DNA from: Hyphomicrobium sp.
Lineage (GTDB): Bacteria > Pseudomonadota > Alphaproteobacteria > Rhizobiales > Hyphomicrobiaceae
NCBI RefSeq assembly: GCF_019753045.1
Contig: NZ_JAIELN010000005.1
Coordinates: 186,001 to 250,000, forward strand
Direction of reading: 5' to 3'
Length of the DNA: 64,000 nt
Under the pieces are notes generated by a model. The model was not told the DNA's origin and ran no database searches. It saw nothing but the letters and a program-made list of their open reading frames with translations. Both the position numbers and the translations under genes were made by a program. Of the stretch, positions 41,871 through 58,209 are shown piece after piece (the stretch's first letter is position 1; each line of letters opens with the position of its first letter).

Positions 41871-44800
41871 CTACTCGGCCGGATGAAGCGGCGTCTCGTG
41901 AGATGGTGCCCGAGACCTGCGGCCGAGATCGGACAGCCAGCGGCACACCACATAGAAGACGGGCGTGAAGATCAGGCCGAAGAAGGTTACGCCGATCATG
42001 CCCGCGAATACGGCGGTTCCGAGCGCTTGACGCAGCTCGGCACCGGCGCCGACCGCCCAAACCAACGGCACCACGCCGAGGATGAACGCCAGCGACGTCA
42101 TGATGATCGGTCGCATTCTCAACCGGGCCGCTTCGGTCGCGGCCTCGAATCGGGATTTGCCCTGAGCTTCGAGTTGCTCCGCAAACTCCACAATCAGAAT
42201 AGCGTTTTTCGCCGCTAGACCTATGAGAACGATGAAGCCAACCTGGGTCAGGATGTTGTTGTCCATTCCCCGGAGGATGACGCCCGAGATCGATGCGATG
42301 AGGCTCATCGGGACGATCAGGATGACCGCGAGCGGCAACGTCAGGCTTTCGAACTGTGCGGCAAGGACGAGGAACACGAACAGGACGCCCAGAGCGAAGG
42401 CAAAGATTGCCGTGTTGCCGGCGCGGATCTGCTGATAGGCGAGATCGGTCCATTCATAGCTGAAGCCAGGCGGGAGCGTCTCGGCCGCCAGCTTCTGCAT
42501 GATGTCGATCGCCTGCCCCTGCGAGTATCCGGGAGCAGCAGAACCATCGAGTTCGGCTGCCGGATAAAGGTTGTAGCGGGGAACGCGCGCCGGGCCTGAA
42601 ATATCGCTCACGGTCGTGAACGAGCCGAGCGGGACGGCATCGCCGTTCGAATTGCGCACGCGAATGCTCAGCGCATCTTTTGGCGTCAAACGAAATTCAC
42701 CGTCGGACTGCGCCGTCACGCGGAAGGTGCGGCCGAGGAGGTTGAAGTCGTTGACGTAGATCGAGCCGAGGTACGTTTGCAGCGCGGCAAAGACTTCAGG
42801 GACGCGGATGCCGAGCATCTGCGCCTTGACGCGATCGATGTCGAGATAGAGCTGAGGCGTCGACGTCTCGAAGAGCGAGAACACCTGCCGCACGCCCGTC
42901 GTCTGAGCCGCCTTGCCCATCATCGCATTGACAGCCGCCTGCAACGCAGCCGAGCCGGCACCCGATCGATCCTCCACCATCATGCGGAAGCCGCCGGAGC
43001 TGCCAAGACCGCGGACGGGGGGCGGCGCAACGACAAGCACCATAGCTTCCTGGATCTCAGAAAATTTCTTGAGGAGCGCACCCTGAATAGCTTTCGCCGA
43101 CATGTTCGGATCTTTGGCGCGCTCTTCGAAGGGCTTCAGCGTGACGAAAACCGCGCCAGCGTTCGAGGCATTGACGCGCGTCGCACCGGAGAAGCCCACG
43201 ATATTGACGGCGTGAGCAACGCCCGGAACGGTGAGCGCAAGTTCGACGGCCCGCTTGTTGACCTCGTTGGTACGAGCCAAAGAAGCGGCAGGCGGAAGCT
43301 GGGTGATCGTGATCAGATAGCCGCCGTCCTGGTCGGGGATGAAGCCGACCGGAGTTTTGCGGAACTCGTTCAATCCGAATGCGATGAGGCCCGCGTATAG
43401 CACCAGCATCAGGATGGAGAACCGGACGGCGCGTCCAGCCAGCCATCCATAGCCGTGGGAAAGCCTATCGAAGCTCCAGTTGAACGCATTGAAGAACGCG
43501 CGGATGGGCCACGTGAGGGGGCTATGGCGATGCTCGGTCGAATGGGGCTTCAAGAGCATGGCGCAGAGCGCGGGCGACAGGGTCAACGACACGATCAGCG
43601 AAATCACCGTCGCGCCCGCGATCGTCAGCGCGAACTGACGATAGAACTGGCCCGAGATGCCGGTGATGAATGCCGATGGAACGAACACCGCACTCAAAAC
43701 GAGCGCGATGGCGATGAGCGCCGTGCCCACCTCCTCCATGGTCCGGTAGGAGGCTTCTCGGGGACTCATCCCGTTTGCCATGTTGCGTTCGACGTTTTCG
43801 ACCACGACGATCGCGTCGTCGACGACGATGCCGATCGCCAGCACGAGCCCGAAGAGCGACAGGTTGTTCAGCGAGAAGCCGAACATCTGCATCAGGAAGA
43901 AAGTGCCGATGAGCGAAACGGGGATGGCCACGATCGGGATGATCGCCGCGCGCCATGTTTGCAGGAAGAGGAGGACGACGATCACCACCAGAACGACGGC
44001 TTCGAGTATGGTGTCAATGACGGCGTCGACCGACTGCTGAATGAAGTCAGTCGGGTTGTAGACGATGGTGTACTCGAGCCCCGGCGGGAAGCTCTTCGAC
44101 ATCTCCGCCATGGCTTCTTTGATGTTCTTCGCCGTTTCGATGGCGTTCGAACCGGGCAGCTGGAAGACGCCGAGACCGACCGCCGCCTGCTTATCGAGAT
44201 ACGAGTTGATGCTGTAATCGAGCGCCGCCAGTTCGACTCTCGCGACGTCCTTCACCCGGACGACGGAGTTGGCGTTTTGCTTGACGACGATATTTCCGAA
44301 ATCATTCGGATCTATCAGGCGACCTTGCGTTTGCACCGTGATCTGGAATGCGCCAGGCTTTTCGAGCGGCGGCTGATTGAGCACGCCGGCGGCCACCTGG
44401 ACGTTCTGTCCCTGCAGCGCGGTCACGACGTCGCTTGCCGTCAGCGCCAGCGATTGCAGGCGGTCGGGATCAAGCCAGACGCGCATCGAGTAATCGCGTC
44501 CGCCGAATACCGTGATCGAGCCTACGCCCTGCACTCGGGTGAGCGCATCGACGATGTTCACGCTCGCGTAGTTCGAAATGAAAAGCGTATCGCGTGAATT
44601 GTCGGGCGACAGCAGATGCACGACCATCATGAGGTCGGGCGACGCCTTCGCAACGGTGACGCCGATGTTGCGCACGTCGGCCGGCAATCTCGGCAGTGCG
44701 ATGGAGACGCGGTTCTGCACCTGAACCTGCGCAATATCGAGATTGGTGCCGATATCGAAGGTGACCGAAATCGAGAAGCGGCCGTCATTCGTCGAGTTCG

Positions 44801-45044
44801 ACGATATGAAGAGCATGTGCTCGACGCCGTTGATCTGCTGCTCGAGCGGCGTTGCGACCGTCGCCGCGACGACCTCGGCGCTGGCGCCCGGATATTGCCC
44901 CGTGATGTTCACCACCGGCGGCGCGATTTCCGGATACTGCGCGATCGGCAATCGGCTGACGGATACCAGGCCGATGATGACGAACACGACGGAAATGACG
45001 GCCGCGAAGATCGGGCGGTCGATGAAGAAGTGCGATATGCGCAT
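41871..45044 (-). CDS. RND efflux permease (AcrB/MexB type)
   Basis: A 1057-aa inner-membrane proton/drug antiporter of the hydrophobe/amphiphile efflux-1 family. Twelve TM helices are arranged as 1+5 and 1+5 around two large periplasmic loops. Characteristic stretches are FIDRPIFAAVISVVFVIIGL at the start, VFVPSAFITGISGQFYRQFA, and GIVVDDAIVVVENVERNM with the paired Asp residues of the proton relay in TM4, plus GLAAKNAILIVEFAEQ in TM11. It follows the adaptor gene by 15 bp and is expected to work with an unlinked TolC-like outer membrane channel; no such gene is in the window. Substrate range is unknown. Confidence 0.95.
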   Translation of the reverse strand: MRISHFFIDRPIFAAVISVVFVIIGLVSVSRLPIAQYPEIAPPVVNITGQYPGASAEVVAATVATPLEQQINGVEHMLFISSNSTNDGRFSISVTFDIGTNLDIAQVQVQNRVSIALPRLPADVRNIGVTVAKASPDLMMVVHLLSPDNSRDTLFISNYASVNIVDALTRVQGVGSITVFGGRDYSMRVWLDPDRLQSLALTASDVVTALQGQNVQVAAGVLNQPPLEKPGAFQITVQTQGRLIDPNDFGNIVVKQNANSVVRVKDVARVELAALDYSINSYLDKQAAVGLGVFQLPGSNAIETAKNIKEAMAEMSKSFPPGLEYTIVYNPTDFIQQSVDAVIDTILEAVVLVVIVVLLFLQTWRAAIIPIVAIPVSLIGTFFLMQMFGFSLNNLSLFGLVLAIGIVVDDAIVVVENVERNMANGMSPREASYRTMEEVGTALIAIALVLSAVFVPSAFITGISGQFYRQFALTIAGATVISLIVSLTLSPALCAMLLKPHSTEHRHSPLTWPIRAFFNAFNWSFDRLSHGYGWLAGRAVRFSILMLVLYAGLIAFGLNEFRKTPVGFIPDQDGGYLITITQLPPAASLARTNEVNKRAVELALTVPGVAHAVNIVGFSGATRVNASNAGAVFVTLKPFEERAKDPNMSAKAIQGALLKKFSEIQEAMVLVVAPPPVRGLGSSGGFRMMVEDRSGAGSAALQAAVNAMMGKAAQTTGVRQVFSLFETSTPQLYLDIDRVKAQMLGIRVPEVFAALQTYLGSIYVNDFNLLGRTFRVTAQSDGEFRLTPKDALSIRVRNSNGDAVPLGSFTTVSDISGPARVPRYNLYPAAELDGSAAPGYSQGQAIDIMQKLAAETLPPGFSYEWTDLAYQQIRAGNTAIFAFALGVLFVFLVLAAQFESLTLPLAVILIVPMSLIASISGVILRGMDNNILTQVGFIVLIGLAAKNAILIVEFAEQLEAQGKSRFEAATEAARLRMRPIIMTSLAFILGVVPLVWAVGAGAELRQALGTAVFAGMIGVTFFGLIFTPVFYVVCRWLSDLGRRSRAPSHETPLHPAE

Positions 45045-45059
45045 TGGACGGGCCGTTCT

Positions 45060-46268
45060 TTATTGGGTCCGGACCGTCTGGTCCTTCGGATTGGAAGCGT
45101 CGGCGGCTGCCTGCTGCGGCGTGACTTTCGCGCCGGGTCGGATGCGCATCAGGCCGTTCACGATGACCGTGTCGTCAGGCGAAAGGCCCGTCGTCACGAC
45201 GCGCAGCCCATCGACCAACGGTCCAAGCGTGACGTATTTCGGTGTCGCGACATTGTCGCTGCCGACGGCATAGACGAACTTCCTGACCTGCTCGGTGCCG
45301 ATGGCGGCATCGGGAACGAGCAGCGCCTCCGCCGGTTCAGAAGCCGCAATCCGGATGCGGCCGAACATGCCCGGCGTGAGGCGTCCGTCAGCATTCTTGA
45401 AGACCGCGCGGCCGCGGATCGTGCCGGACGATTTATCGATCGCGTTGTCGATAAAGTCGATGTGTCCGTCGTGGACGAAGTCCTTTTCATCGATCAGCTT
45501 CAGTTGAGCTGGCATGTCCAAGGCACCGCCTTTGCTGTCGGTTGTCTTCGCCGACGCAGCCTTGAGGTAGCGGAGGTATGAGGCCTCATCCATCGTGAAC
45601 TCGAAGCGGATCGGATCGACCGAGGCGATCGTCGCGAGCAGCGTCGTGTTTCCGGTCGTTCCGCCGGTGACGAGGTTTCCGACCGATACGCGGCGATCGC
45701 CTATTTTGCCGTCGATCGGAGCGACAAGCTCCGTGAACTCCAAATCGAGAGTCATCTGCCTCGACGCTGCCTGCTGAGCGGTCAAATCCGCTTCTGCCAC
45801 GCGCTTCGCCTGAAGGCGCTGATCGAGCGACTGCTGCGTGATCGTTGTTCCGCGGACCAGACTTTCACCGCGCTCCAAATCGGACTGTGCGAAGGCGACC
45901 TTCGCCTCCGCTTGCGCGATGGATGCTTTCGCCTGATCAACCGATGCCTGGAATGGACGGCGGTCGATGGTGAAGAGCGGATCGCCGGCCTTGATCATCT
46001 GGCCGTCGGTGAAGTGGATCTTGTCGAGGTAACCCGAAACGCGCGCCCGCACTTCGACGAAGTCGACGGGGACGAATCGCCCGACGTATTCATCGTAGTC
46101 GGCGACGATCTTCTTCGTGGGCTTGGCCACGGTGACCTGCGGCGGTGGCGGAGGCGCCGCTTGAGCTGCGGTTTTCTCTTCGCTGCATGCCGAAAGTCCC
46201 GCTGATAAAGTCAGCAGAACCGCAGCGATTGAGGCGGACCGTTGGAACACGGGTTCTGTCTCCGTCAT
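45060..46268 (-). CDS. RND efflux periplasmic adaptor lipoprotein (AcrA type)
   Basis: A 402-aa membrane-fusion protein that bridges the permease and an outer-membrane channel. Start ATG 46268 places the lipobox LLTLSAGLSAC (Cys about residue 28) at the right distance; the track's 46403 start adds 45 spurious residues. The lipoyl/hairpin/barrel order is visible: VEVRARVSGYLDKIHFTDGQ (about 78-97), the coiled-coil with QAKASIAQAEAKVAFAQSDL, and the beta-barrel with DNAIDKSSGTIRGRAVF. It forms an operon with the permease and is divergent from a TetR repressor. Confidence 0.94.
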   Translation of the reverse strand: MTETEPVFQRSASIAAVLLTLSAGLSACSEEKTAAQAAPPPPPQVTVAKPTKKIVADYDEYVGRFVPVDFVEVRARVSGYLDKIHFTDGQMIKAGDPLFTIDRRPFQASVDQAKASIAQAEAKVAFAQSDLERGESLVRGTTITQQSLDQRLQAKRVAEADLTAQQAASRQMTLDLEFTELVAPIDGKIGDRRVSVGNLVTGGTTGNTTLLATIASVDPIRFEFTMDEASYLRYLKAASAKTTDSKGGALDMPAQLKLIDEKDFVHDGHIDFIDNAIDKSSGTIRGRAVFKNADGRLTPGMFGRIRIAASEPAEALLVPDAAIGTEQVRKFVYAVGSDNVATPKYVTLGPLVDGLRVVTTGLSPDDTVIVNGLMRIRPGAKVTPQQAAADASNPKDQTVRTQ

Positions 46269-46450
46269 GTAGATTTGAAATCGACGCACGAGGGAACCGG
46301 TTGCGTTCCATATCGAGCGCCAGCGTCTAATCGCGCCGAGCGTCGCCGCGTTCGGCCCGTGTGAATTTTCCTTCTGACCCCACCGCGAACGGGCGCACGG
46401 CATTCGTTCCGCGCGCGTTAAGTACCGAGTGACAGAGATGACAGAGTCAT

Positions 46451-46492
46451 GTTACCCGGTACCGATCGGTAACATACAGCTACCGATCGGTA
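46451..46492. promoter_or_regulatory. paired TetR operator palindromes
   Basis: TACCGATCGGTA occurs as a perfect 12-bp palindrome at 46460-46471 and again at 46481-46492, with centres 21 bp apart (two helical turns). Both copies are followed by AACAT, and an extra GTTACC half-site lies just left of the first. The pair sits 20-60 bp upstream of the tetR start and upstream of the divergent adaptor gene, where a TetR repressor would control both. Confidence 0.88.
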
Positions 46493-46511
46493 ACATTCTC
46501 GTCAAGGGCGC

Positions 46512-47150
46512 ATGAGCATTGCGCAGGAGAAAGATTTGCGCAGCGTTGGCGGATCAGAAGCAGTCGCCGAGGGGCAATTTGCCGCCAAGTCACCACGAGA
46601 GCGAATTCTGATCGCAGCTCGCGATCTTTTCTACCGGCACGGCGTGTATGCCGTCGGCGTGGAGGCAATCGCCGAGGCCGCGCTTACAAACAAGATGACA
46701 TTGTACCGTCACTTCAAATCGAAGGACGAATTGATTGTCACATACGTCCAACAGCTCGCCGATGAAGGCGATGACGTTCTCAATCGCATTCTGGCCGAGA
46801 ATGTAGATAGCCCCCAAAAACAAGTCGATGCCTGGGTCGATTTTGTCGAAGACGTGCTGACGAACAAGCTCGAACGCGGCTGCGCGCTGGCGAATGCCGC
46901 CGTCGAACTCGATACCGGCCACCCGGCCCGCGCCGTGATCGAAGCCTACAAACAGCGTAAGCATGACCGCCTCGTCGGGCTCTTCCGCGCCGCCCGATAT
47001 CGCGACCCCGGTTTGCTCGCCGATGAAGTCTTTCTTCTGTTCGAAGGCGCGCGGATCAGCATTCAATGCGGCGGCAAGGGTCCGGCGTCACGCGTCGTCG
47101 GGATGCTGCGCGGACTGCTCTCGTCGCGGCCGAGGTTGGTCGAGGCCTAA
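46512..47150 (+). CDS. TetR/AcrR family regulator of the efflux pump
   Basis: A 212-aa repressor. The N-terminal helix-turn-helix (about 27-80) reads RERILIAARDLFYRHGVYAV, GVEAIAEAALTNKMTLYRHF and KSKDELIVTYV, and the rest is a helical ligand-binding domain with C-terminal TetR_C-like features. It is divergent from the RND adaptor, with two perfect palindromes between them, so local repression of the pump and itself is the natural reading. The inducer is unknown. A sigma-54-type promoter and riboswitch for the next operon begin about 125 bp after the stop. Confidence 0.93.
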   Translation: MSIAQEKDLRSVGGSEAVAEGQFAAKSPRERILIAARDLFYRHGVYAVGVEAIAEAALTNKMTLYRHFKSKDELIVTYVQQLADEGDDVLNRILAENVDSPQKQVDAWVDFVEDVLTNKLERGCALANAAVELDTGHPARAVIEAYKQRKHDRLVGLFRAARYRDPGLLADEVFLLFEGARISIQCGGKGPASRVVGMLRGLLSSRPRLVEA

Positions 47151-47290: not shown

Positions 47291-47301
47291 GAGCATGGCG
47301 C

Positions 47302-47412
47302 ATAACGCCTCTAGGGTTCCGGCTTCACAAGCGTCAGGTCCGAGAGAGGCTCTCCCGCTTCGCGCGACGCGAGGCGGAGCCACGGCGGGATAAAAGCCCG
47401 GGAGACCTACAC
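47302..47412 (+). promoter_or_regulatory. guanidine-I riboswitch (ykkC class)
   Basis: The diagnostic conserved blocks are all present and in order: CTAGGGTTCCGGC, then GGTCCGAGAGAG, then CACGGCGGGATAAAAGCCCGGGAGA. These are the signature sequences of the ykkC RNA that binds guanidinium. It lies between the sigma-54 promoter and the guanidine operon, about 135 nt ahead of the first start codon. Binding should switch the operon on. A covariance search with the Rfam ykkC model would settle the borders. Confidence 0.95.
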
Positions 47413-47436
47413 CGCGAGTTGCTCCGGCGCTCGAAC

Positions 47437-47542
47437 GGACAGGCCTCCCTCCGCGCGCTCGTCTCCGCGCTCATCCGAGGTCTTCCGCTCCTGTCCCGAA
47501 GTTCCTTGCGGCCTCACTGAGTGGTCAGCACAAGGACAGGGG
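47437..47542 (+). promoter_or_regulatory. candidate translational expression platform
   Basis: Three short elements follow the aptamer: GGACAGG (47437-43), CCTGTCC (47490-96) and GGACAGG (47534-40). The last includes the ribosome binding site of the first gene, GGACAGGGG. The middle element can pair with either flank but not both, so aptamer-dependent choice could hide or free the ribosome binding site. The downstream pairing extends to 9 bp with a G-U pair, the upstream one to 7 bp. No intrinsic terminator with a U-tract is visible here. Mechanism is inferred. Confidence 0.6.
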
Positions 47543-47548
47543 TTGGCG

Positions 47549-48613
47549 ATGCGCTTTTCCGTCAAGCAAATTTTGAAGGCCGCGATTGGTCTCGCGGCCG
47601 TGACAGGGTTTGCCCTGTCGCCTGCAAATGCCGCCGAGAAGAAAGACTTCAAAGTCGCCTGGTCGATTTATGTCGGCTGGATGCCTTGGGGCTATGCGGC
47701 CGATTCCGGCATCGTGAAAAAATGGGCCGACAAATACGGCATCAACATCGAAGTCAAACAGTTCAACGATTACGTCGAATCCATCAACCAGTATACGGCG
47801 GGCTCGTTCGACGCGGTCACCGTGACGAACATGGATGCGCTCTCCATTCCGGCTGCCGGCGGCGTCGACACCACGGCCGTGATCGTCGGCGACTTCTCGA
47901 ACGGCAACGACGCCGTCATCCTGAAGAACAAAGACAAGCTCGCGGACATCAAGGGCCAGAACGTCAATCTCGTCGAGTTCTCGGTTTCGCACTACCTGCT
48001 GGCGCGCGGTCTTGAAAGCGTCGGGCTCGCCGAGAAGGACCTGAAAGTCGTCAACACGTCCGACGCCGATATGGCGGCCGCTTACAAGACACCCGACGTC
48101 ACGTCGGTCGTCACTTGGAAGCCCATCGTTTCGACGATCCTTGAATCTCCCGACGCAAAGAAGGTCTTCGACAGCTCGCAAATTCCGGGCGAGATCATTG
48201 ACCTCATGGTCGTCAACACGGCCGTGCTGAAAGACAATCCCAAATTCGCGAAGGCACTCGCAGGTATCTGGTACGAGACGCTTGCGACGCTGAAGGACGG
48301 TACGGCTTCGAAGGAGGCCATGGCCAAGGCTTCAGGCACCGACGTCAAAGGCTTCGACGAACAGCTTGCAACGACGAAGCTGTTTTCAGATCCGAAAGAC
48401 GCCGTGGCGTTTGCCACCGGCAAAGATCTGAAGACGACGACCGAACGCGTCTCCAAATTCCTGTTCGAGAAATCCCTGCTCGGCAAGGACGCGAAGTCCG
48501 ACGGCGCGATCGGCGTCGAGTTCCCCGACAAAACGGTCTTCGGCGACAAGGCGAACGTCAAGTTCCGCTACGACGCGACGTTCATGAAAGAGGCGGAAGA
48601 CGGCAAGCTTTAA
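47549..48613 (+). CDS. guanidine/urea-type ABC transporter substrate-binding protein
   Basis: A 354-aa exported binding protein of the NMT1/SsuA-like family (TIGR03427 type), the kind found beside urea carboxylase genes. The signal peptide MRFSVKQILKAAIGLAAVTG ends near ANAA. The mature protein begins EKKDFKVAWSIYVGWMPWGY and contains VTNMDALSIPAAGGVDTTAV and NLVEFSVSHYLLARGLES. It is the first gene after the guanidine-I riboswitch, and the ATG at 47549 is preceded by ACAGGGG. The track's TTG start two codons earlier is rejected. The ligand is inferred to be guanidine or a related compound. Confidence 0.9.
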   Translation: MRFSVKQILKAAIGLAAVTGFALSPANAAEKKDFKVAWSIYVGWMPWGYAADSGIVKKWADKYGINIEVKQFNDYVESINQYTAGSFDAVTVTNMDALSIPAAGGVDTTAVIVGDFSNGNDAVILKNKDKLADIKGQNVNLVEFSVSHYLLARGLESVGLAEKDLKVVNTSDADMAAAYKTPDVTSVVTWKPIVSTILESPDAKKVFDSSQIPGEIIDLMVVNTAVLKDNPKFAKALAGIWYETLATLKDGTASKEAMAKASGTDVKGFDEQLATTKLFSDPKDAVAFATGKDLKTTTERVSKFLFEKSLLGKDAKSDGAIGVEFPDKTVFGDKANVKFRYDATFMKEAEDGKL

Positions 48614-48652: not shown

Positions 48653-49471
48653 ATGCGCGCTATCAACTACCGGCCGGACAAGACTTGGCGCCTTGCCCTC
48701 GCCTTCCTGCCATTCGCATTACTGTTACTCACTTACATTATCGCTTCCGACATTCGACTGACCGAAAATCCAAACGACAAACTTCTTCCGTCGTTCGCCA
48801 AGATGGGCGAAACGATCGACGCTTACGCGATGAAGCCCGATACCCGCACGGGCGATTATCTGCTTTGGGCTGATACGTCGGCGAGTCTGACGCGGCTCAT
48901 TGCCGGCCTTGCCATCTCGACGGCCATCGCCCTGGTTCTCGGCATCGTCGTCGGGTTGCTGCCGGTGATGAGCGCGACACTCGGGCCGGTCGTGGCGGTG
49001 TTATCGATGGTGCCGCCACTCGCGCTCCTTCCCATTCTCTTCATCGTCATGGGGCTCGGCGAAGCCTCGAAGATCACGCTGATCGTCGTCGGCACATCGT
49101 TGAAGCTCATTCGCGACATCGCGCTCAGGGTCGAAGACATTCCGCGCGAGCAGCTCATCAAGGCGCAGACGCTCGGCGCATCGACGCCGCAGATCGCGTT
49201 GCGCGTCGTGCTGCCGCAAATCCTGCCGCGACTGATCGATTCCGTTCGGCTGGAAATCGGTCCGGCGTGGCTCTTCCTGATTGCTGCCGAGGCGATCGCC
49301 GCCGATTCCGGCCTCGGCTACCGCATCTTCCTCGTTCGCCGCTATCTCTCGATGGATGTGATCCTGCCCTACGTCGCGTGGATCACGCTTCTGGCGTTCG
49401 TCATGGATCTTTCCCTGCGGCTGCTTCAACGCAAGTCGTTCCCGTGGTTTGCCGAAGCGAGAACAGCATGA
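48653..49471 (+). CDS. ABC transporter permease (guanidine operon)
   Basis: A 272-aa inner-membrane subunit with about six helices (LALAFLPFALLLLTYIIA, LIAGLAISTAIALVLGIVVG, ATLGPVVAVLSMVPPLALLP and so on). The EAA-type coupling motif lies in EQLIKAQTLGASTPQIAL, with the conserved Gly. It is a BPD_transp_1 family member of the SsuC/TauC/NrtB subgroup and is expected to pair with the adjacent ATPase. It lies 39 bp after the binding-protein gene, and its stop overlaps the ATPase start as ATGA. Earlier bases of the next track ORF are a shadow of this gene. Confidence 0.92.
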   Translation: MRAINYRPDKTWRLALAFLPFALLLLTYIIASDIRLTENPNDKLLPSFAKMGETIDAYAMKPDTRTGDYLLWADTSASLTRLIAGLAISTAIALVLGIVVGLLPVMSATLGPVVAVLSMVPPLALLPILFIVMGLGEASKITLIVVGTSLKLIRDIALRVEDIPREQLIKAQTLGASTPQIALRVVLPQILPRLIDSVRLEIGPAWLFLIAAEAIAADSGLGYRIFLVRRYLSMDVILPYVAWITLLAFVMDLSLRLLQRKSFPWFAEARTA

Positions 49472-50307
49472 ACGCCATCGTCTTCGACAAGGTTTGGAAA
49501 GAATACGGCGATCACGTCGTCCTCGAGCAGATCAATCTCGAGATCGAGACGCGCTCGTTCGTGGCGCTGGTCGGCCCATCAGGATGCGGCAAGACAACAT
49601 TCTTGCGCATGCTTCTCGGCGAGGAGCGGCCAACGCGCGGCAGCATTCTCGTCGATGGCGTGCCCCTCAAAGCGGAGCCCGATGCGGACCGCGGCGTCGT
49701 CTTCCAGCGCTACTCGGTATTTCCGCACCTGACAGTTCTCGGCAACGTCATCATCGGGCGGGAGTTCGAGATGGCCGGCGCGCTCGGCCGATTATTCGGT
49801 CGCGCGCGGAAACAGGCGGAAGACGATGCGCGCGAGCTTCTTGCCGCTGTCGGCCTCGCCGGCCAGGAAGCAAAATATCCGGCCGCGCTTTCGGGCGGTA
49901 TGCAGCAACGTCTTGCACTGGCGCAGGCAATCATGCGGCGGCCGAAGGTGCTTTTGCTCGACGAGCCCTTCGGCGCGCTCGATCCCGGCATTCGGTCCGA
50001 CATCCACGTTCTGATGCGGCGCATCTGGAATGAATCCTCGCTGACGGTCGTGATGGTCACTCACGACCTCAGTGAAGCTTTCGAACTCGGTACGCGGATC
50101 ATCGCATTCGAGCGGCCGCGCAGCCGGCCCGAGGAACTCGAGCGATATGGCGTCCGGCTATCGGCCGACATTCCGACACCACCTCCGACAGCGCCTCTGC
50201 TGCCGAAGGGCGCGACGATCACCAAGGATATCGAGATCTGGCCGAAGAAAGTTGCAGGCAGCCCCGGCGTTCTAACGCGTCACGGGCACTCTGCTCCGCG
50301 CTCTTAG
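49468..50307 (+). CDS. ABC transporter ATP-binding protein (guanidine operon)
   Basis: A 279-aa ATPase. Walker A GPSGCGKTT (about residue 39), Q-loop VFQRYSVF, ABC signature LSGGMQQRLALAQA and Walker B VLLLDEPFGALDP with the switch His in MVTHD. It powers the permease encoded upstream. The start ATG 49468 forms an ATGA overlap with the permease stop; the ORF-track start at 49267 runs back through the permease and is a shadow. A Pro-rich C-terminal extension of about 50 residues (IPTPPPTAPLLPKGATI) is longer than usual for the SsuB/TauB group. Confidence 0.93.
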   Translation: MNAIVFDKVWKEYGDHVVLEQINLEIETRSFVALVGPSGCGKTTFLRMLLGEERPTRGSILVDGVPLKAEPDADRGVVFQRYSVFPHLTVLGNVIIGREFEMAGALGRLFGRARKQAEDDARELLAAVGLAGQEAKYPAALSGGMQQRLALAQAIMRRPKVLLLDEPFGALDPGIRSDIHVLMRRIWNESSLTVVMVTHDLSEAFELGTRIIAFERPRSRPEELERYGVRLSADIPTPPPTAPLLPKGATITKDIEIWPKKVAGSPGVLTRHGHSAPRS

Positions 50308-50418: not shown

Positions 50419-51153
50419 ATGGGCAACTTGGTCTACGGGGATACGCTGCCAGGAGGCAAACACTGGTCGCTGCTGCTGCGCCGAAACATGCGGCTGCGCC
50501 TGACTGATGTGGAGGGCGGTGCCAACATCGGGATGCTCTTCTACAATCCGCTGAATTTGCTCGAGCGCTACAACGCGCCCGACACGCTGAAATGTCAGCA
50601 CACGTTCAAGCTCACCGCCGGTCATTGCCTCTACTCGGATATGGGTCGCATCTTTTGCTCGGTCGTGTCGGACACGTTCGGCTGGCACGATACGGTCTCC
50701 GGCAATACGACGAAGGCCATCGTCGCGCGGAAATGGGGCGAGAAGAACTATCAGAACGCACGCAACGACTGGCAGCAGAACGGCCACGACAGCTTCCTCG
50801 TCGAAGGAGCGAAGTATGGGCTGACGCGCCGCGATCTGGCGGCGAACGTCAACTGGTTCAGCAAGATCGCCGTCGCCTCCGATGGCGCGATGTCGCTCGA
50901 TACCTCAGCAGCGAAGGCTAGAGCTCAGGTTGAACTGCGCTTCGAGATCGATACGCTCGTTCTCTTTCACACCTGTCCGCATCCCTTGAACCTCGCGAAT
51001 GCGTATCCCCGGAAAGCAGTGCACTTCGAGATCTTCGAGGGGGCGCCGGCGGCGGCCGACGACCCCGCGCGGCTTTCCGCGCCCGAGAACGAGCGCGGTT
51101 TCGAGAACAACCGCATTTTCCTCGCCGGTTGCTGTGGAGACGCGCATCAATGA
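50419..51153 (+). CDS. DUF1989 protein, carboxyguanidine deiminase subunit (1 of 2)
   Basis: A 244-aa member of the DUF1989 family, annotated elsewhere as urea carboxylase-associated protein (UAAP). It starts at [16 protein letters not shown] with TTGAGG upstream; the track's earlier GTG adds 37 spurious residues. [23 protein letters not shown] and [20 protein letters not shown] are family blocks, and a metal-binding Cys lies in [16 protein letters not shown]1989 pairs have been shown to form a carboxyguanidine deiminase that turns carboxyguanidine into allophanate. It overlaps the next gene by ATGA. Confidence 0.85.
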
Positions 51154-51797
51154 TCAAAGAAAGCACGCTTCGCGAAGTCGACGCGATCTATCGCCGTATC
51201 GTTCCGGCCGGCGAATATTGGATGCACGTCGTCCACGAAGGCGAAACGCTTCGCCTCCTCGATCTCGAAGGCAATCAGGCGGCAGACACCCTGTTCTTCA
51301 ACGCCGACGATCCAGCGGAACGCTACTCGGCGTCCGACACCATCCGGGAGCAAGGCAATATCTACCTGACCGCGGGATCGGTACTTCGTTCCGACATCTG
51401 CCGTCCGATGCTGACGATCACGGCCGATACGGTCGGCCGTCACGATACGCTCGGCGGCGCCTGCGCGACGGAGAGCAATACCGTTCGCTACGCGCTCGAG
51501 AAGAAATCGATGCACGCATGCCGCGACAGCTTCCTGCTCGCGATCGCCGAGAACGAGCAGTACGGCCTCTCGAAACGCGACATCGGACACAACATCAATT
51601 TCTTCATGAACGTGCCGGTGACGCCCGAAGGCGGGTTGACGTTCGAGGATGGTTTGTCGGCGCCGGGCAAATACGTCGAGATGACCGCGCACATGAACGT
51701 CATCGTGCTCATCTCGAACTGTCCGCAGCTCAACAATCCTTGCAACGCCTACAACCCCACGCCGATCGAAGTTCTCATCTGGGGTAAGGGGGCCTGA
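51150..51797 (+). CDS. DUF1989 protein, carboxyguanidine deiminase subunit (2 of 2)
   Basis: A 215-aa paralogue of the previous product, sharing the DUF1989 core: [37 protein letters not shown] and [20 protein letters not shown], with conserved Cys in [18 protein letters not shown]. The pair likely forms the heteromeric deiminase that hydrolyses carboxyguanidine, releasing ammonia. ATG 51150 overlaps the preceding stop as ATGA, and GTGGAG precedes it; the track start (51129) is earlier and weaker. The carboxylase begins 5 bp after the stop. Confidence 0.86.
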
Positions 51798-51802
51798 CGT
51801 CC

Positions 51803-54800
51803 ATGTTCCGCAAAGTCCTGATCGCCAACCGCGGCGCTATCGCCTGCCGTATCATCAGAACGCTCGACCGCATGGGGATCGCGAGCGTCGCGGTCTATTC
51901 CGAGGCCGATCGCCATTCGATGCATGTCATGCAGGCGGGCGAAGCCGTCGCCATTGGCCCATCGCCGGCAGCCGAGAGCTATCTCAAGTTCGACGCCATT
52001 CTCGACGCCGCGAAGATGACCGGCGCGGAAGCCATTCATCCGGGCTACGGCTTTCTGTCGGAAAATCCTGATTTCGCGGAGGCGTGCGAAGCGGCAGGCA
52101 TCGTGTTCATCGGGCCGAAGGCAAAGCACATGCGAGCCTTCGGATTGAAGCACAAGGCGCGCGAGCTTGCGCTTCAGGCGAACGTGCCGTTGGCGCCGGG
52201 CTCCGGGCTCATCCGCGATGTCGAACATGCCAAGAGCGAAGCCCAGCGCATCGGCTATCCGGTGATGATCAAGAGCACGGCCGGCGGCGGCGGCATCGGG
52301 TTGCAGCTCGTGTCGACGGCGGAAGAAATCGCCCCGATGTTCGAGCGCGTCGAACGCCTCGCCCGCAACAACTTCAAGGACGCCGGTATCTTCATCGAGA
52401 AGTACGTGGCGCGCGGCCGCCACATCGAGGTGCAGATTTTCGGCGATGGTCGCGGCAACGTCGTCTCGCTCGGCGAACGCGATTGCTCGGCGCAGCGGCG
52501 GAACCAAAAGGTCATCGAGGAGACGCCTGCGCCAAATCTACCCGAGAAGACGCGCGCGGCGCTCTGGGAGACAGCGCGACGCCTCGGCCAGTCCGTCAAT
52601 TACGAAAGCGCGGGCACCGTCGAATATCTCTACGACGCCGAGACGAACGAGTTCTATTTTCTCGAGGTCAATACGCGGCTTCAGGTGGAGCACGGCGTGA
52701 CCGAAGAGGTCGTCGGCGCCGATCTCGTCGAATGGATGGTGCGGCAAGCGGCGGGAGAACTGCATCCGCTCGATCAATCCAAGATTTCGCCAACGGGCGC
52801 GTCGATCCAAGTCAGGCTTTATGCGGAAGATCCTGCGCGCGATTTCCGGCCAAGCTCCGGTCGGCTGACACATGTCTCCTGGCCGTCTGACGCGCGCATA
52901 GAAACATGGGCGCAAAGCGGATCGGAGGTTTCGCCCTACTACGATCCGATGATCGCAAAGATCATCGTCAAGGGATCGACACGCGACGACGCGCTGGCGC
53001 GACTTCGATCGGCGCTCGATCAAACGCGCATCGGCGGTCTCGAAACCAATCTCGATTATCTGCGCCAGCTCGCGGGCTCCAGCGTCTTCGCGAAAGCCGA
53101 AATGCTGACGCGGACACTGCAGACGTTCACTTATAAGGCTGACACGATCGAAGTTCTGTCGCCGGGCACGCAGACGACGATCCAGGATTGGCCGGGACGC
53201 GTCGGCTACTGGGCGGTCGGCGTGCCGCCATCAGGACCGATGGATGCGCTGTCGTTTCGCCTCGCCAATCGCATCGTCGGCAACGACGAAGGCGCTGCCG
53301 GGATCGAGACGACGCTCGCGGGGCCTTCCCTCAAGTTCAACACCGACGCCGTGATCTGTCTAGCGGGAGCGGAGCTGACGGCGACGCTCGACGGCGCGGC
53401 TGTCGACTACTGGCAGGCTATCCAGATCCGGGCCGGACAGGTGCTCAAGATCGGCGGCGTCAAGGGTCCGGGCGTGCGCGCCTACATCGCCGTTCGCGGC
53501 GGCATCGATGTTCCGTCTTATCTCGGAAGCAAATCGACATTCACGCTCGGCAAGTTCGGCGGGCACGGCGGCCGCGTGTTGATGACGGGCGACGTGCTTC
53601 ACATCGGCCGCGACGCGACGAGCTTTCCTTCGGCACGTCTTCCGGCGGAACTCAAGCCTCGCCTCGTCCATACCTGGGATATCGGCGTTCTCTACGGTCC
53701 ACATGGCGCGCCGGATTTCTTTGCGCCGGAATACATCGATACGTTCTTCTCGAGCGATTGGGAGGTTCATTACAATTCCAATCCGACCGGCATTCGGTTG
53801 ATCGGGCCGAAGCCCGTCTGGGCACGCACCGATGGTGGCGAAGCCGGGCTTCATCCGAGCAATATTCACGACAACGCCTATGCCATCGGTACGATCGATT
53901 TCACCGGCGACATGCCCGTCATTCTCGGCCCCGACGGTCCGTCGCTCGGCGGCTTCGTGTGTCCGGCGACCATCGTGCAAGCCGAGCTTTGGAAGATGGG
54001 CCAGCTTCGGCCGGGCGACAAAGTCCGCTTCACGCGCCTCTCTCCTGCGGAGGCGGCTGCGCGTCTTGCCAAGCAGAACGCAGAGATCGCATCGCTCAAG
54101 TCTATCGCCGCGCCGTCGTTTCCGCATGCGAAGTGGGGAGCGGATGATTGCATCGTCGGCGGCCGCGAAGCGTCCGGCGACAAGCCGCGCGTCGTTTATC
54201 GCCGCGCGGGCGATGCTTACATGCTCGTCGAGTACGGCCCGATCATCCTCGATTTCACGTTACGTTTCCGCGCGCACGCTCTGATGACCGCTCTCGAACA
54301 GCGAAAGCTCAGCGGCATTCTCGACCTGACGCCGGGCATCCGGTCCTTGCAGGTCCATTACGACAGCACGGTTCTGCCGCTCGAAGATCTGCTCGCCGAA
54401 CTTTCGCGCATCGAAGATACGCTCGGCGACCTGAGCGACATCGAGGTGCCGTCGCGCATCGTGCATCTGCCGCTGTCGTGGAACGACCCCGCGGTGCAGA
54501 AGACGATCGACAAATATATCCAGGGCGTTCGACCAGACGCGCCGTGGTGTCCTTCCAACATCGAGTTCATTCGGCGCATCAACGGGCTCGAGTCCATCGA
54601 GGACGTGTTGCGGATCGTTTTCGACGCGACGTACGTCGTCCTCGGACTCGGCGATGTGTATCTCGGCGCGCCGGTCGCGACGCCGATCGATCCTCGTCAT
54701 CGTCTCGTCACGACGAAATACAATCCGGCGCGAACGTGGACACCCGACAACGTCGTCGGCATCGGCGGCGCTTACATGTGCATCTACGGCATGGAGGGTC

Positions 54801-55423
54801 CCGGCGGCTATCAGCTCTTCGGGCGGACGTGCCAAGTCTGGAACACGTATCGCACCACGGAAGCGTTTGAAGCCGGGTCGCCGTGGCTTTTGCGGTTCTT
54901 CGATCAGATCCGTTTCTATCCAGTCTCGAGCGAAGAGCTGGTGAAGTTCCGTGACGGCTTTCTCGAAGGGCAGGCAAGCGTCAAAGTCGAAGAGACAACG
55001 TTTCGTCTCAGGGATTATCAGGCTTTTGTTACCGAGAACGCCCAATCGATCAGCGCCTTCAAGTCGCGTCAGCAGGCCGCCTTCGAGGCTGAGCGGGCGC
55101 GCTGGCAGCAGGTCGATCAGGAAGGTGCCGCTGGCGCATCCGACGGCGGTATCGAAGAGGATGGAGCCGCCGCGCTGCCGCCAGGGGCCACGGCCGTCGA
55201 GAGCCCGGTTCCCGGCAGTGTCTGGAAGGTTCTCGTCGAGCCCGGAACACCCGTCGCCGAGGGCGAGACGCTGATAATCGTTGAATCGATGAAAATGGAA
55301 ATGGCCGTGCCGGCTCCGCAAAGCGGGGTCGTTCACGAAGTACGCTGCGTCGAAGGGCGGCCTGTGGCCCTTGGCCAGGCTCTCGTTATCTTAAGAGAGC
55401 CACATGCGGAGGCGACGGCGTGA
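51803..55423 (+). CDS. guanidine (urea-family) carboxylase
   Basis: A 1206-aa biotin-dependent enzyme. Biotin carboxylase at about 1-450 ([23 protein letters not shown]-grasp [28 protein letters not shown]). The urea-carboxylase-type transferase region follows, with two KipA/KipI-like halves (about 450-780 and 790-1090). C-terminal biotin carrier with ESMKMEM, the biotin Lys being K1164. A key residue is D699 in GTIDFTGD, where the corresponding Asn in yeast-type urea carboxylases recognises urea; Asp is reported for guanidine-specific enzymes. It carboxylates guanidine to carboxyguanidine. GTGA overlap with the next gene. Confidence 0.9.
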
Positions 55424-57207
55424 CCCTATCGCTCGACATTGCAAATCTCGCCGCCCTCTACGCGCGGGGGGAAACGACACCCGAAGCAACGGTCGAAGAG
55501 GTCTTCGCGCGCATCGGAGCCAAGGGCGTTGCGCCCGACTGGATTGCGCTTCGCGATAAGGCGAACGTTCTCGATAGCCTTCGCCGCGCGCCGCACGGGC
55601 CCCTTTACGGCATTCCATTTGCCGTCAAGGACAACATCGATGTCGCCGGTATGCCGACGACATGTGCCTGTCCGGCTTTCGCCTATGTGCCCGTGCGTTC
55701 GGCGACCGTCGTCGAACGGCTTGAAGCGGCAGGCGCCATCCTGATCGGCAAAACGAACCTCGACCAGTTTGCGACCGGGCTTAACGGCACGCGCTCGCCA
55801 TATGGCATTCCGGCGAGCGTCTTCAATACGGACTACATTTCCGGCGGCTCGAGTTCGGGTTCGGCCGTCGTCGTGGCCGCGGGTCTTGTTTCGTTTTCTC
55901 TCGGGACGGACACTGCGGGATCGGGCCGCGTTCCGGCGGCCTTCAACAACATCGTGGGTCTGAAGCCGACTAAAGGCATCATCTCTACGCGTGGCGTCGT
56001 ACCCGCATGCAAGAGCCAAGACGCCGTTTCGATTTTTGCGCTGACTGTTGCGGACGCCGCGAAGGTTGCGGAGGCAGCCGTCGCCTTCGACAAGGACGAC
56101 TGTTTCGCGCGGGCCGACGCGCCACCATTCGCCGTCGAGACGGCCGGACGTCCGCTGAGAATTGGCATTCCCAATGCGCCGCTCTCGTTCTTCGAGGACA
56201 GCGAATACCGCCGTCTCTATCATCACACGATCGATCGCCTCGCCGGGCTCGGCGCCGAGATCACTCCCTTCAACTTCGCGCCATTTCGCGACACGGCGGC
56301 GATGCTGTACGACGGTCCTTGGGTTGCCGAACGGCTATTTGCCGTCGACGACATGAACGATGACGATCTTCATCCCGTCGTTCGCGACATCATCCATAAC
56401 GGCCGGAATAAATCCGCGCTCGCGACGTTCGAGAGCTTTTATCGTCTCGCAGAGTATCGCCGCGCTGCGGACGCCGAGTGGAACCGCATGGACGTGATGG
56501 TGCTGCCGACGGCGGGCACGACGTACAAAATCGCCGATATCCTGGCCGACCCAGTTCGCCTCAATTCGAACCTCGGCGCGTATACGAATTTCGTCAATCT
56601 TCTCGACCTCTCGGCTCTCGCCGTTCCGGCGGGCTTTCGCGAGGACGGCATCCCGTTCGGCGTGACACTGATCGGACGAGCGTTCGCCGACGGACAACTC
56701 GCGGCGATCGGTGACACTCTTCACCGCACGCTCGATGGTGCGAAGCTTGGCGCGACGCAGGCCGCATTATCCGATGCCGCGCCGGTCACCCCGCAGCCCG
56801 CCACGAAGAAGAAAACGGTCGAGGTCGCAGTGGTCGGCGCGCATCTCAGAGGCCAGCCGCTCAACAGTCAGCTCACAGAGCGCGACGCCATTTACCGGGA
56901 GACGGCGCGCACGGCGGCGGGATACCGGCTTTATGCCTTGCCCGGAACGACCCCGCCAAAGCCGGGCCTCGTTTTCGAAGGCACGGGGCCCGGTGCGATC
57001 GAAGTCGAAATCTGGGAAATGGACGAGGCCGCGTTCGGGTCGTTCGTGGCGCTCATACCGGCCCCGCTCGGGATCGGGACGCTTCTGCTCGAAGGCGGCC
57101 GACAGGTGAAAGGCTTCCTTTGCGAAAGCCATGCCGTTCGGGGCGCCGAGGACATTACGGAGTTCGGGGGCTGGCGCGCGTGGCTCGGCCGGTCGGCCGT
57201 CGCCTGA
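55420..57207 (+). CDS. atzF: allophanate hydrolase
   Basis: A 595-aa two-domain enzyme that hydrolyses allophanate to two ammonia and two CO2, the final step of guanidine/urea nitrogen release. The amidase-signature part (about 1-440) has the catalytic Lys in GIPFAVKDNIDVAG (about residue 71) and the Gly-Ser stretch SGGSSSGSAVVVAAG, with the second Ser and the nucleophile. The C-terminal domain (about 460-595) has the EVAVVGAHLRGQPLNSQLTE segment typical of AtzF. GTG start overlapping the carboxylase stop, consistent with tight coupling. No strong terminator follows. Confidence 0.93.
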   Translation: MTLSLDIANLAALYARGETTPEATVEEVFARIGAKGVAPDWIALRDKANVLDSLRRAPHGPLYGIPFAVKDNIDVAGMPTTCACPAFAYVPVRSATVVERLEAAGAILIGKTNLDQFATGLNGTRSPYGIPASVFNTDYISGGSSSGSAVVVAAGLVSFSLGTDTAGSGRVPAAFNNIVGLKPTKGIISTRGVVPACKSQDAVSIFALTVADAAKVAEAAVAFDKDDCFARADAPPFAVETAGRPLRIGIPNAPLSFFEDSEYRRLYHHTIDRLAGLGAEITPFNFAPFRDTAAMLYDGPWVAERLFAVDDMNDDDLHPVVRDIIHNGRNKSALATFESFYRLAEYRRAADAEWNRMDVMVLPTAGTTYKIADILADPVRLNSNLGAYTNFVNLLDLSALAVPAGFREDGIPFGVTLIGRAFADGQLAAIGDTLHRTLDGAKLGATQAALSDAAPVTPQPATKKKTVEVAVVGAHLRGQPLNSQLTERDAIYRETARTAAGYRLYALPGTTPPKPGLVFEGTGPGAIEVEIWEMDEAAFGSFVALIPAPLGIGTLLLEGGRQVKGFLCESHAVRGAEDITEFGGWRAWLGRSAVA

Positions 57208-57387: not shown

Positions 57388-58209
57388 ATGCGCAACAGAA
57401 TATTCCGCTCCACGATTGTTGCCGGATTGACGGCGGTCCTGGGGATGATCGCGGCCCAGTCGGGCGCGCGGGCCGACGACACGGCTGTCATCTGGGACAG
57501 CATCCGGACAGATCTCTTCGGAACGCGCGAGGTTGCTGACGGTGCCGGAAAAGTGGCGCTCGAAGCACCGTACCGGGCCGAAGACGCCTCTACGGTTCCT
57601 CTCACCGTTCGCCTTCCGGCTGAATTCGCCAAGGACGTGAAATCCCTGACGCTCGTCATCGACAAGAACCCTTCCCCCGTCGTCGCTACGTTCACGTACG
57701 GCGATGCGGCTGGCAATGGCGAACGCGTTCTAGCCACGCGCGTCCGCATCGACCAGTATTCGAATGTTCGCGCGATCGCCGAGACGAACGACGGCAAACT
57801 CTTCATGACGATCAAGTTCGTGAAGGCGTCGGGCGGCTGCTCGGCTCCGGCCGGCAAGGACCCGGAAGAAGCGGCGAAGACCATGGGCAAGATGAAGGTG
57901 ATGACCGCCTTCAAGGACCCGCAAAACGCGACTGCGCAAGAAGCTCAGGTGATGATCCGTCATCCCAACAATTCCGGCTTGCAGATGGATCAGGTGACCG
58001 GCCTCTATATCCCGACGCATTTCGTGGACAAGGTGGCCGTGAAGACTGGCGGCAAAACTGTCTTCACGATGACGGGCGGCATCTCGATCAGCGAGAACCC
58101 GAACTTCCGTTTCACCTATCAGGGCAATCCGTCCGATGTGATGAGCGTCGATGCCGAGGATTCGCAAGGCAACGCGTTCAAGGGCAATTCAACTCCGAGC
58201 CAATCCTGA
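57388..58209 (+). CDS. fused SoxYZ-like sulfur carrier
   Basis: A 273-aa exported protein: signal peptide MRNRIFRSTIVAGLTAVLGM ending around ARADD, then a SoxY-like domain (about 30-150; VIWDSIRTDLFGTREVADGA) and a SoxZ-like immunoglobulin domain (about 165-273; VMIRHPNNSGLQMDQVTGLY). The carrier Cys is C151 in KASGGCSAPAGK, corresponding to the GGCGG end of SoxY, here internal. The family (TIGR04557) is annotated as quinoprotein dehydrogenase-associated SoxYZ-like. It precedes SoxC with 21 bp spacing, so it may deliver the substrate to SoxCD. Confidence 0.87.
   Translation: MRNRIFRSTIVAGLTAVLGMIAAQSGARADDTAVIWDSIRTDLFGTREVADGAGKVALEAPYRAEDASTVPLTVRLPAEFAKDVKSLTLVIDKNPSPVVATFTYGDAAGNGERVLATRVRIDQYSNVRAIAETNDGKLFMTIKFVKASGGCSAPAGKDPEEAAKTMGKMKVMTAFKDPQNATAQEAQVMIRHPNNSGLQMDQVTGLYIPTHFVDKVAVKTGGKTVFTMTGGISISENPNFRFTYQGNPSDVMSVDAEDSQGNAFKGNSTPSQS

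Follow-up and report, generated by a model that had tools for sequence, protein, structure and literature searches.

A guanidine-I riboswitch of Hyphomicrobium predicted to control translation through a relay of mutually exclusive helices

The leader of a guanidine import and degradation operon in Hyphomicrobium sp. is probably a guanidine-I riboswitch with a translational ON platform that works through a relay of mutually exclusive helices, a reading to which we assign a probability of roughly 0.7. The leader lies within a 64,000-nucleotide stretch of contig NZ_JAIELN010000005.1 (positions 186,001 to 250,000), hereafter the window, whose numbering is used throughout; features are on the plus strand unless stated otherwise. 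The reading is based on the aptamer and the operon behind it, on helices that are conserved and in part covary, on a missing U-tract, and on the sign computed for the effect on the Shine-Dalgarno (SD) sequence. From these we infer a structural change driven by guanidine, operation of the switch in living cells, and control at the level of translation, possibly accompanied by effects coupled to Rho.

The aptamer (47300-47406) matches the guanidine-I model RF00442 over its full length (model positions 1-107) with a cmscan score of 77.9 bits (E 3.6e-12), which passes the curated gathering score of 63. This match, just upstream of the segment that the first-pass annotation had attributed to a guanidine-I riboswitch, bears out that choice of class. 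In the Rfam alignment, the core elements CUAGGGUUCCG and CACGG..GGAUAAAAGCCCGGGAG are intact, and the core is identical in relatives. The same alignment places the 3' tail of the aptamer, GGGAGACCU (47400-47408, strand T), whose GGGAG is kept in the leaders that we read. Because G47401 pairs in Rfam helix P3 of the aptamer, pairing of T elsewhere breaks the aptamer. Judged by sequence, guanidine is the probable ligand, and its binding would be what changes expression.

The aptamer is placed upstream of genes for guanidine transport and degradation, the genomic context of RF00442. The first of these, with its true start at ATG 47549, encodes the periplasmic substrate-binding protein of a guanidine ABC transporter, annotated as 'urea' (47549-48613; TIGR03427, 541 bits), and is 97% identical at the protein level to its counterpart in Hyphomicrobium facile, the closest named genome. 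An ABC transporter permease (48653-49471; NCBIfam TauC/SsuC-like, score under the cut-off) and an ABC transporter ATP-binding protein (49468-50307; NCBIfam matches under the equivalog cut-offs) follow. The operon's second switch, a guanidine-II riboswitch (RF01068, 50322-50369, 41.5 bits), sits between the ATPase gene and UAAP1. The remaining genes encode the carboxyguanidine deaminase subunits UAAP1 (urea amidolyase associated protein; 50419-51153, TIGR03425) and UAAP2 (51150-51797, TIGR03424), urea/guanidine carboxylase (51803-55423; TIGR02712, 1899 bits), and allophanate hydrolase (55420-57207; TIGR02713, 783 bits). Upstream, the operon adjoins a region (41871-47150) that encodes an RND efflux pump and a membrane-fusion protein on the minus strand, together with a divergent TetR-type regulator; downstream, it adjoins a fused SoxYZ-like carrier of the quinoprotein-dehydrogenase-associated type (57388-58209, TIGR04557).

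A substrate-binding protein gene lies downstream of the guanidine-I aptamer in every one of the leaders L001-L030 and in 177 of 216 guanidine-I leaders, and guanidine-II was found in 47 of 103 family genomes, frequently about 3 kb beyond guanidine-I. Three leaders from other members of the order (L037, L039, L064) have a UAAP-like gene, not an importer, directly after guanidine-I. The leaders L074 and L080 carry, just past the aptamer and between the leader and the permease gene, a short ORF that replaces the binding-protein gene and ends in an arginine run plus a cysteine (e.g. MALKAFVPPVPSSSQVRRRRPFCI before the stop); it is possibly a leader peptide or a small regulator.

Between the aptamer and the start codon we found strands that can pair in more than one way. 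The antisequestor A (CCGCGAG, 47412-47418) has two partners, A' (CUCGaaCGG, 47430-47438) in the predicted OFF state and B in the predicted ON state; A' lies inside an anti-aptamer hairpin and most relatives have a UUCG-type loop there. The conserved sequestering strand B (CCUUGCGGCC, 47504-47513) can pair with A through its CUUGCGG portion (47505-47511) or, over its full length, with C (GGUCAGCACAAGG, 47523-47535), the 3' strand of a conserved hairpin that lies at the SD or immediately in front of it. Finally, the anti-aptamer stem, made up of T and T' (AGGcCUCCC, 47441-47449), is present in the minimum free energy (MFE) structure of the OFF state.

These pairings were assessed in a MAFFT alignment of 33 Hyphomicrobiaceae leaders built without structure, using as controls partner strands slid by 1-3 columns and, for covariation, 500 column shuffles. 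A:A' is paired in 93.6% of cells, A:B in 79.8% (37-46% when slid), and B:C in 83.0% (35-49% when slid), or 80-94% for all three helices together compared with 18-49% for slid partners, a control that handles kinship, yet is applied to strands picked by inspecting the same sequences. The covariation score was 0.168 for A:B (0.122 shuffled) and 0.292 for B:C (0.191 shuffled, with 21 double-changed cells), and 0 of 500 shuffles reached the real score in either case, although column shuffles, like the p-values given below, ignore the kinship of the leaders. Compensatory pairs can also be seen by eye, as in GCCGCGAGA/UCUCGCGGC (L010), GCCGCAAAGA/UUUUUGCGGC (L003), CGCAGGGAG/CUCCUUGCG (L006), and GCAGGG/CCCUGC (L019). 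The three-way exclusivity of A':A, A:B, and B:C is thus real, on strands other than those first proposed. For T:T', a first version of an ungapped helix score was uninformative, and the energy gain showed no excess over shuffles in Hyphomicrobiaceae leaders; since shuffles pair the tail as favourably as the real leaders do, the case for T:T' is made here by homology and conserved sequence rather than by energy.

We propose that without guanidine T would pair with T', closing a hairpin with A:A' inside. B would then be free to pair with C, and in the window strain CCUGUCC would pair with the SD segment GGACAGGGG as well, so that ribosomes would be kept off the binding-protein gene. Once guanidine is bound, the folded aptamer would retain T and the T:T'/A:A' hairpin would open; A would take B, the B:C hairpin would be lost, and the SD would be exposed. 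The SD itself (AGGGG, 47538-47542) lies inside GGACAGGGG (47534-47542), which ends 6 nt before the ATG, and is found in the same place in relatives. A more direct model, with free CUCCC as the partner of the SD, was rejected because it would turn guanidine into an OFF signal for its own importer and because CCUUGC, not CUCCC, is conserved on the SD side.

The first-pass annotation had assigned the switch to three 7-mers, GGACAGG (47437-47443), CCTGTCC (47490-47496), and GGACAGG (47534-47540), which would form two alternative hairpins, the downstream one burying the SD. All three are present and exactly complementary as described, the 5' copy overlapping A' and T' and the 3' copy running on as GGACAGG(GG) to 47542. 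The triple is locally, if mildly, unusual: among 5000 dinucleotide shuffles of the window leader, 26 had an exact 7-mer, reverse complement, 7-mer arrangement and 220 had a 7-mer complementary to the SD. Of the two hairpins, the downstream one (47490-47496:47534-47540) is predicted in the window, with a pairing probability of 0.96 when the anti-aptamer hairpin is formed and 0.53 when it is blocked, while the upstream one (47437:47490) has a probability of 0.00 in all modelled states. The complementarity that the annotation expected related leaders to keep is not kept: CCTGTCC is missing from 34 of the 35 family leaders, that of the window being the exception, and the 5' helix does no better than shuffles in the 33-leader alignment (55.5% paired cells, equalled by 445 of 500 column shuffles, and no covariation). 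The 3' helix is paired in 64.5% of cells (64 of 500 shuffles equally good), and in 16 of the 33 rows bases are absent from the majority of its pairs. That these 7-mers are themselves the switching strands is therefore very unlikely, for all their exact complementarity and the strength of the 3' hairpin in the OFF model. Both flanking GGACAGG copies are kept in the close Hyphomicrobium group, as parts of A'/T' and of the SD region. CCTGTCC is best seen as a recent, lineage-specific extra arm of this strain's SD-hiding hairpin, because its pairing with the 3' copy is strong in the window but the motif is unique among the 35 leaders. The annotation was nonetheless right in kind: the missing U-tract, the SD opening, and the covariation all fit an SD-burying translational platform with mutually exclusive pairings, with CCGCGAG as the actual antisequestor and CCUUGCGGCC as the conserved sequestering strand.

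Whether the relay would reach the SD was computed by modelling the ligand-free state with the tail forced to pair downstream and the ligand-held state with tail pairing forbidden. In the window, the cost of opening the SD fell from 6.6 to 3.2 kcal/mol once the tail was blocked, a larger drop than in shuffles, but the ON model is only half populated, with A:B at P 0.45 while CCUGUCC:GGACAGG keeps P 0.53. The median change was +0.93 kcal/mol in 95 non-redundant alphaproteobacterial leaders compared with −0.17 for shuffled middles (paired Wilcoxon p 4e-9), +0.73 compared with −0.08 kcal/mol in 33 Hyphomicrobiaceae leaders (p 3e-6), and +4.1 compared with 0.0 kcal/mol in 45 Rhizobiales-type leaders (p 2e-13), p-values that are optimistic because related leaders are treated as independent. 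Rhizobiales-type leaders went from 8.2 to 4.0 kcal/mol, with 43 of 45 changing by more than 0.5; among the Hyphomicrobiaceae, 20 of 33 changed by more than 0.5 and 2 of 33 by less than −0.5, and in about a third the computed change was almost nil. In these models guanidine would act as an ON signal, which is what one would expect of a switch in front of an importer. The SD or its adjacent strand is thus predicted to be paired in one state and released in the other, where an alternative helix forms, and this arrangement is conserved.

Folded as a whole, the leader has an MFE no lower than that of shuffles (z −0.64), and non-native aptamer pairings dominate the structure; this fold lacks a clean switch because the energy model fails to hold the tertiary fold of the aptamer. 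Taken with the third of family leaders that have no computed SD change, this value could be read as a sign that the platform is structured but not gated by guanidine, its helices being fortuitous products of GC-rich sequence. We consider this highly improbable, given the covariation and slide controls, the consistent ON-direction effect relative to shuffles, and the recurrence of the architecture with different sequence in Rhizobiales-type leaders.

The first-pass annotation had also reported no intrinsic terminator, and our analysis agrees, as the anti-aptamer hairpin of the window is without a U-tract; the window leader therefore lacks the transcriptional guanidine-I arrangement of an anti-aptamer hairpin followed by a U-tract. 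Across the 33 Hyphomicrobiaceae leaders, no U-tract was seen after T', with at most four T within the following 9 nt. Loose terminator calls were obtained in 14 of 216 leaders, nearly all Rhizobiales-type, in which the partner of the T-run is the SD strand. We considered this U-run as a terminator and rejected it, as it pairs and covaries with the A-run before the SD. A standard terminator is found in Pantoea (L229), where a homologous T:T' stem is followed by T6, and L263, L279, and L280 look similar. Five other non-alphaproteobacterial leaders (L264, L271, L272, L275, L276) have GGGAG...CUCC without a T-run and a GGAG SD within about 40 nt; their mechanism looks like neither a standard terminator nor the four-strand relay.

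The homology of T:T' to this enterobacterial terminator stem raises the alternative that guanidine controls transcription elongation, either by Rho-dependent termination in the C-rich leader or through a U-less T:T' intrinsic terminator. The class is described as usually transcriptional (PMC12186494), and Rho coupling to translational control in other riboswitches is cited in PMC12508155, but the scarcity of T after T' weighs against an intrinsic terminator, Rho effects could be secondary to translation, and control of elongation would leave the conserved downstream B:C and A:B helices unexplained. We regard this alternative as rather unlikely.

The predicted translational relay also appears outside the Hyphomicrobiaceae. 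In Rhizobiales-type leaders the strands are unrelated in sequence (A, AAGGGAUUGGC; B, GCCGAUCCCUUUU; C, AAAAGGGGA or UGAGGGAU), and helices of 7 bp or more are formed by B:C in 59 of 60 leaders, with B and C changing together, and by A:B, usually with 11-13 bp, in 58 of 60. Here the energy gain of T:T', which uses the strand GACC, is informative relative to shuffles. Other alphaproteobacterial leaders, inspected by eye and included in the pooled energy comparison, show further sequences with tail-pairing and SD-pairing strands. The logic of the relay thus seems to be conserved across related bacteria while the sequences differ. The odds are about even that guanidine-I was rewired from termination to translation in the Alphaproteobacteria sampled (Hyphomicrobiaceae, Rhizobiales, and others), the terminator stem having lost its U-tract and become a cage for the antisequestor within a four-strand relay.

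A guanidine-I plus guanidine-II operon is itself already known. A 2025 review describes this layout in enterobacteria (PMC12186494), and the same pairing in Vreelandella comes with a guanidine-I action presumed to be transcriptional (PMC12508155), a reading that has been extended to new species (PMC11410670, PMC12508155). The operons of Raoultella, Erwinia, and Klebsiella (PMC12186494) and of Vreelandella (PMC12508155) resemble that of the window in having guanidine-I before the importer and guanidine-II before the carboxylase. However, both UAAP genes of the window lie behind guanidine-II, whereas the review puts the deaminase genes with the guanidine-I unit, and guanidine-I is read as translational in the window and as transcriptional in theirs. 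With the transcriptional enterobacterial form of the class (ykkC, RF00442; PMC12186494) the window leader shares the aptamer, the inferred ligand, the importer and carboxylase genes, and an anti-aptamer hairpin in which GGGAG of the 3' tail pairs with CUCC. In contrast to that form, the hairpin of the window has no U-tract and holds the antisequestor, and the SD is predicted to be hidden by a second, conserved hairpin farther downstream. Exposure of the SD on guanidine binding has been proposed for guanidine-II (mini-ykkC, RF01068), of which the window operon has one copy, but the guanidine-II aptamer consists of two ACGR hairpins and is unrelated in sequence to the leader at 47300-47548.

Leaving aside the original guanidine-I papers, we found no statement of a translational guanidine-I platform in open papers, and translational members of the class may already have been noted earlier. 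If translation is indeed the step that the alphaproteobacterial members control, the design of reporters, the use of RNA-seq as evidence for riboswitch activity, and accounts of how the class evolved would need adjusting. If true, this would be a clear case of one aptamer and a conserved anti-aptamer stem serving two expression platforms.
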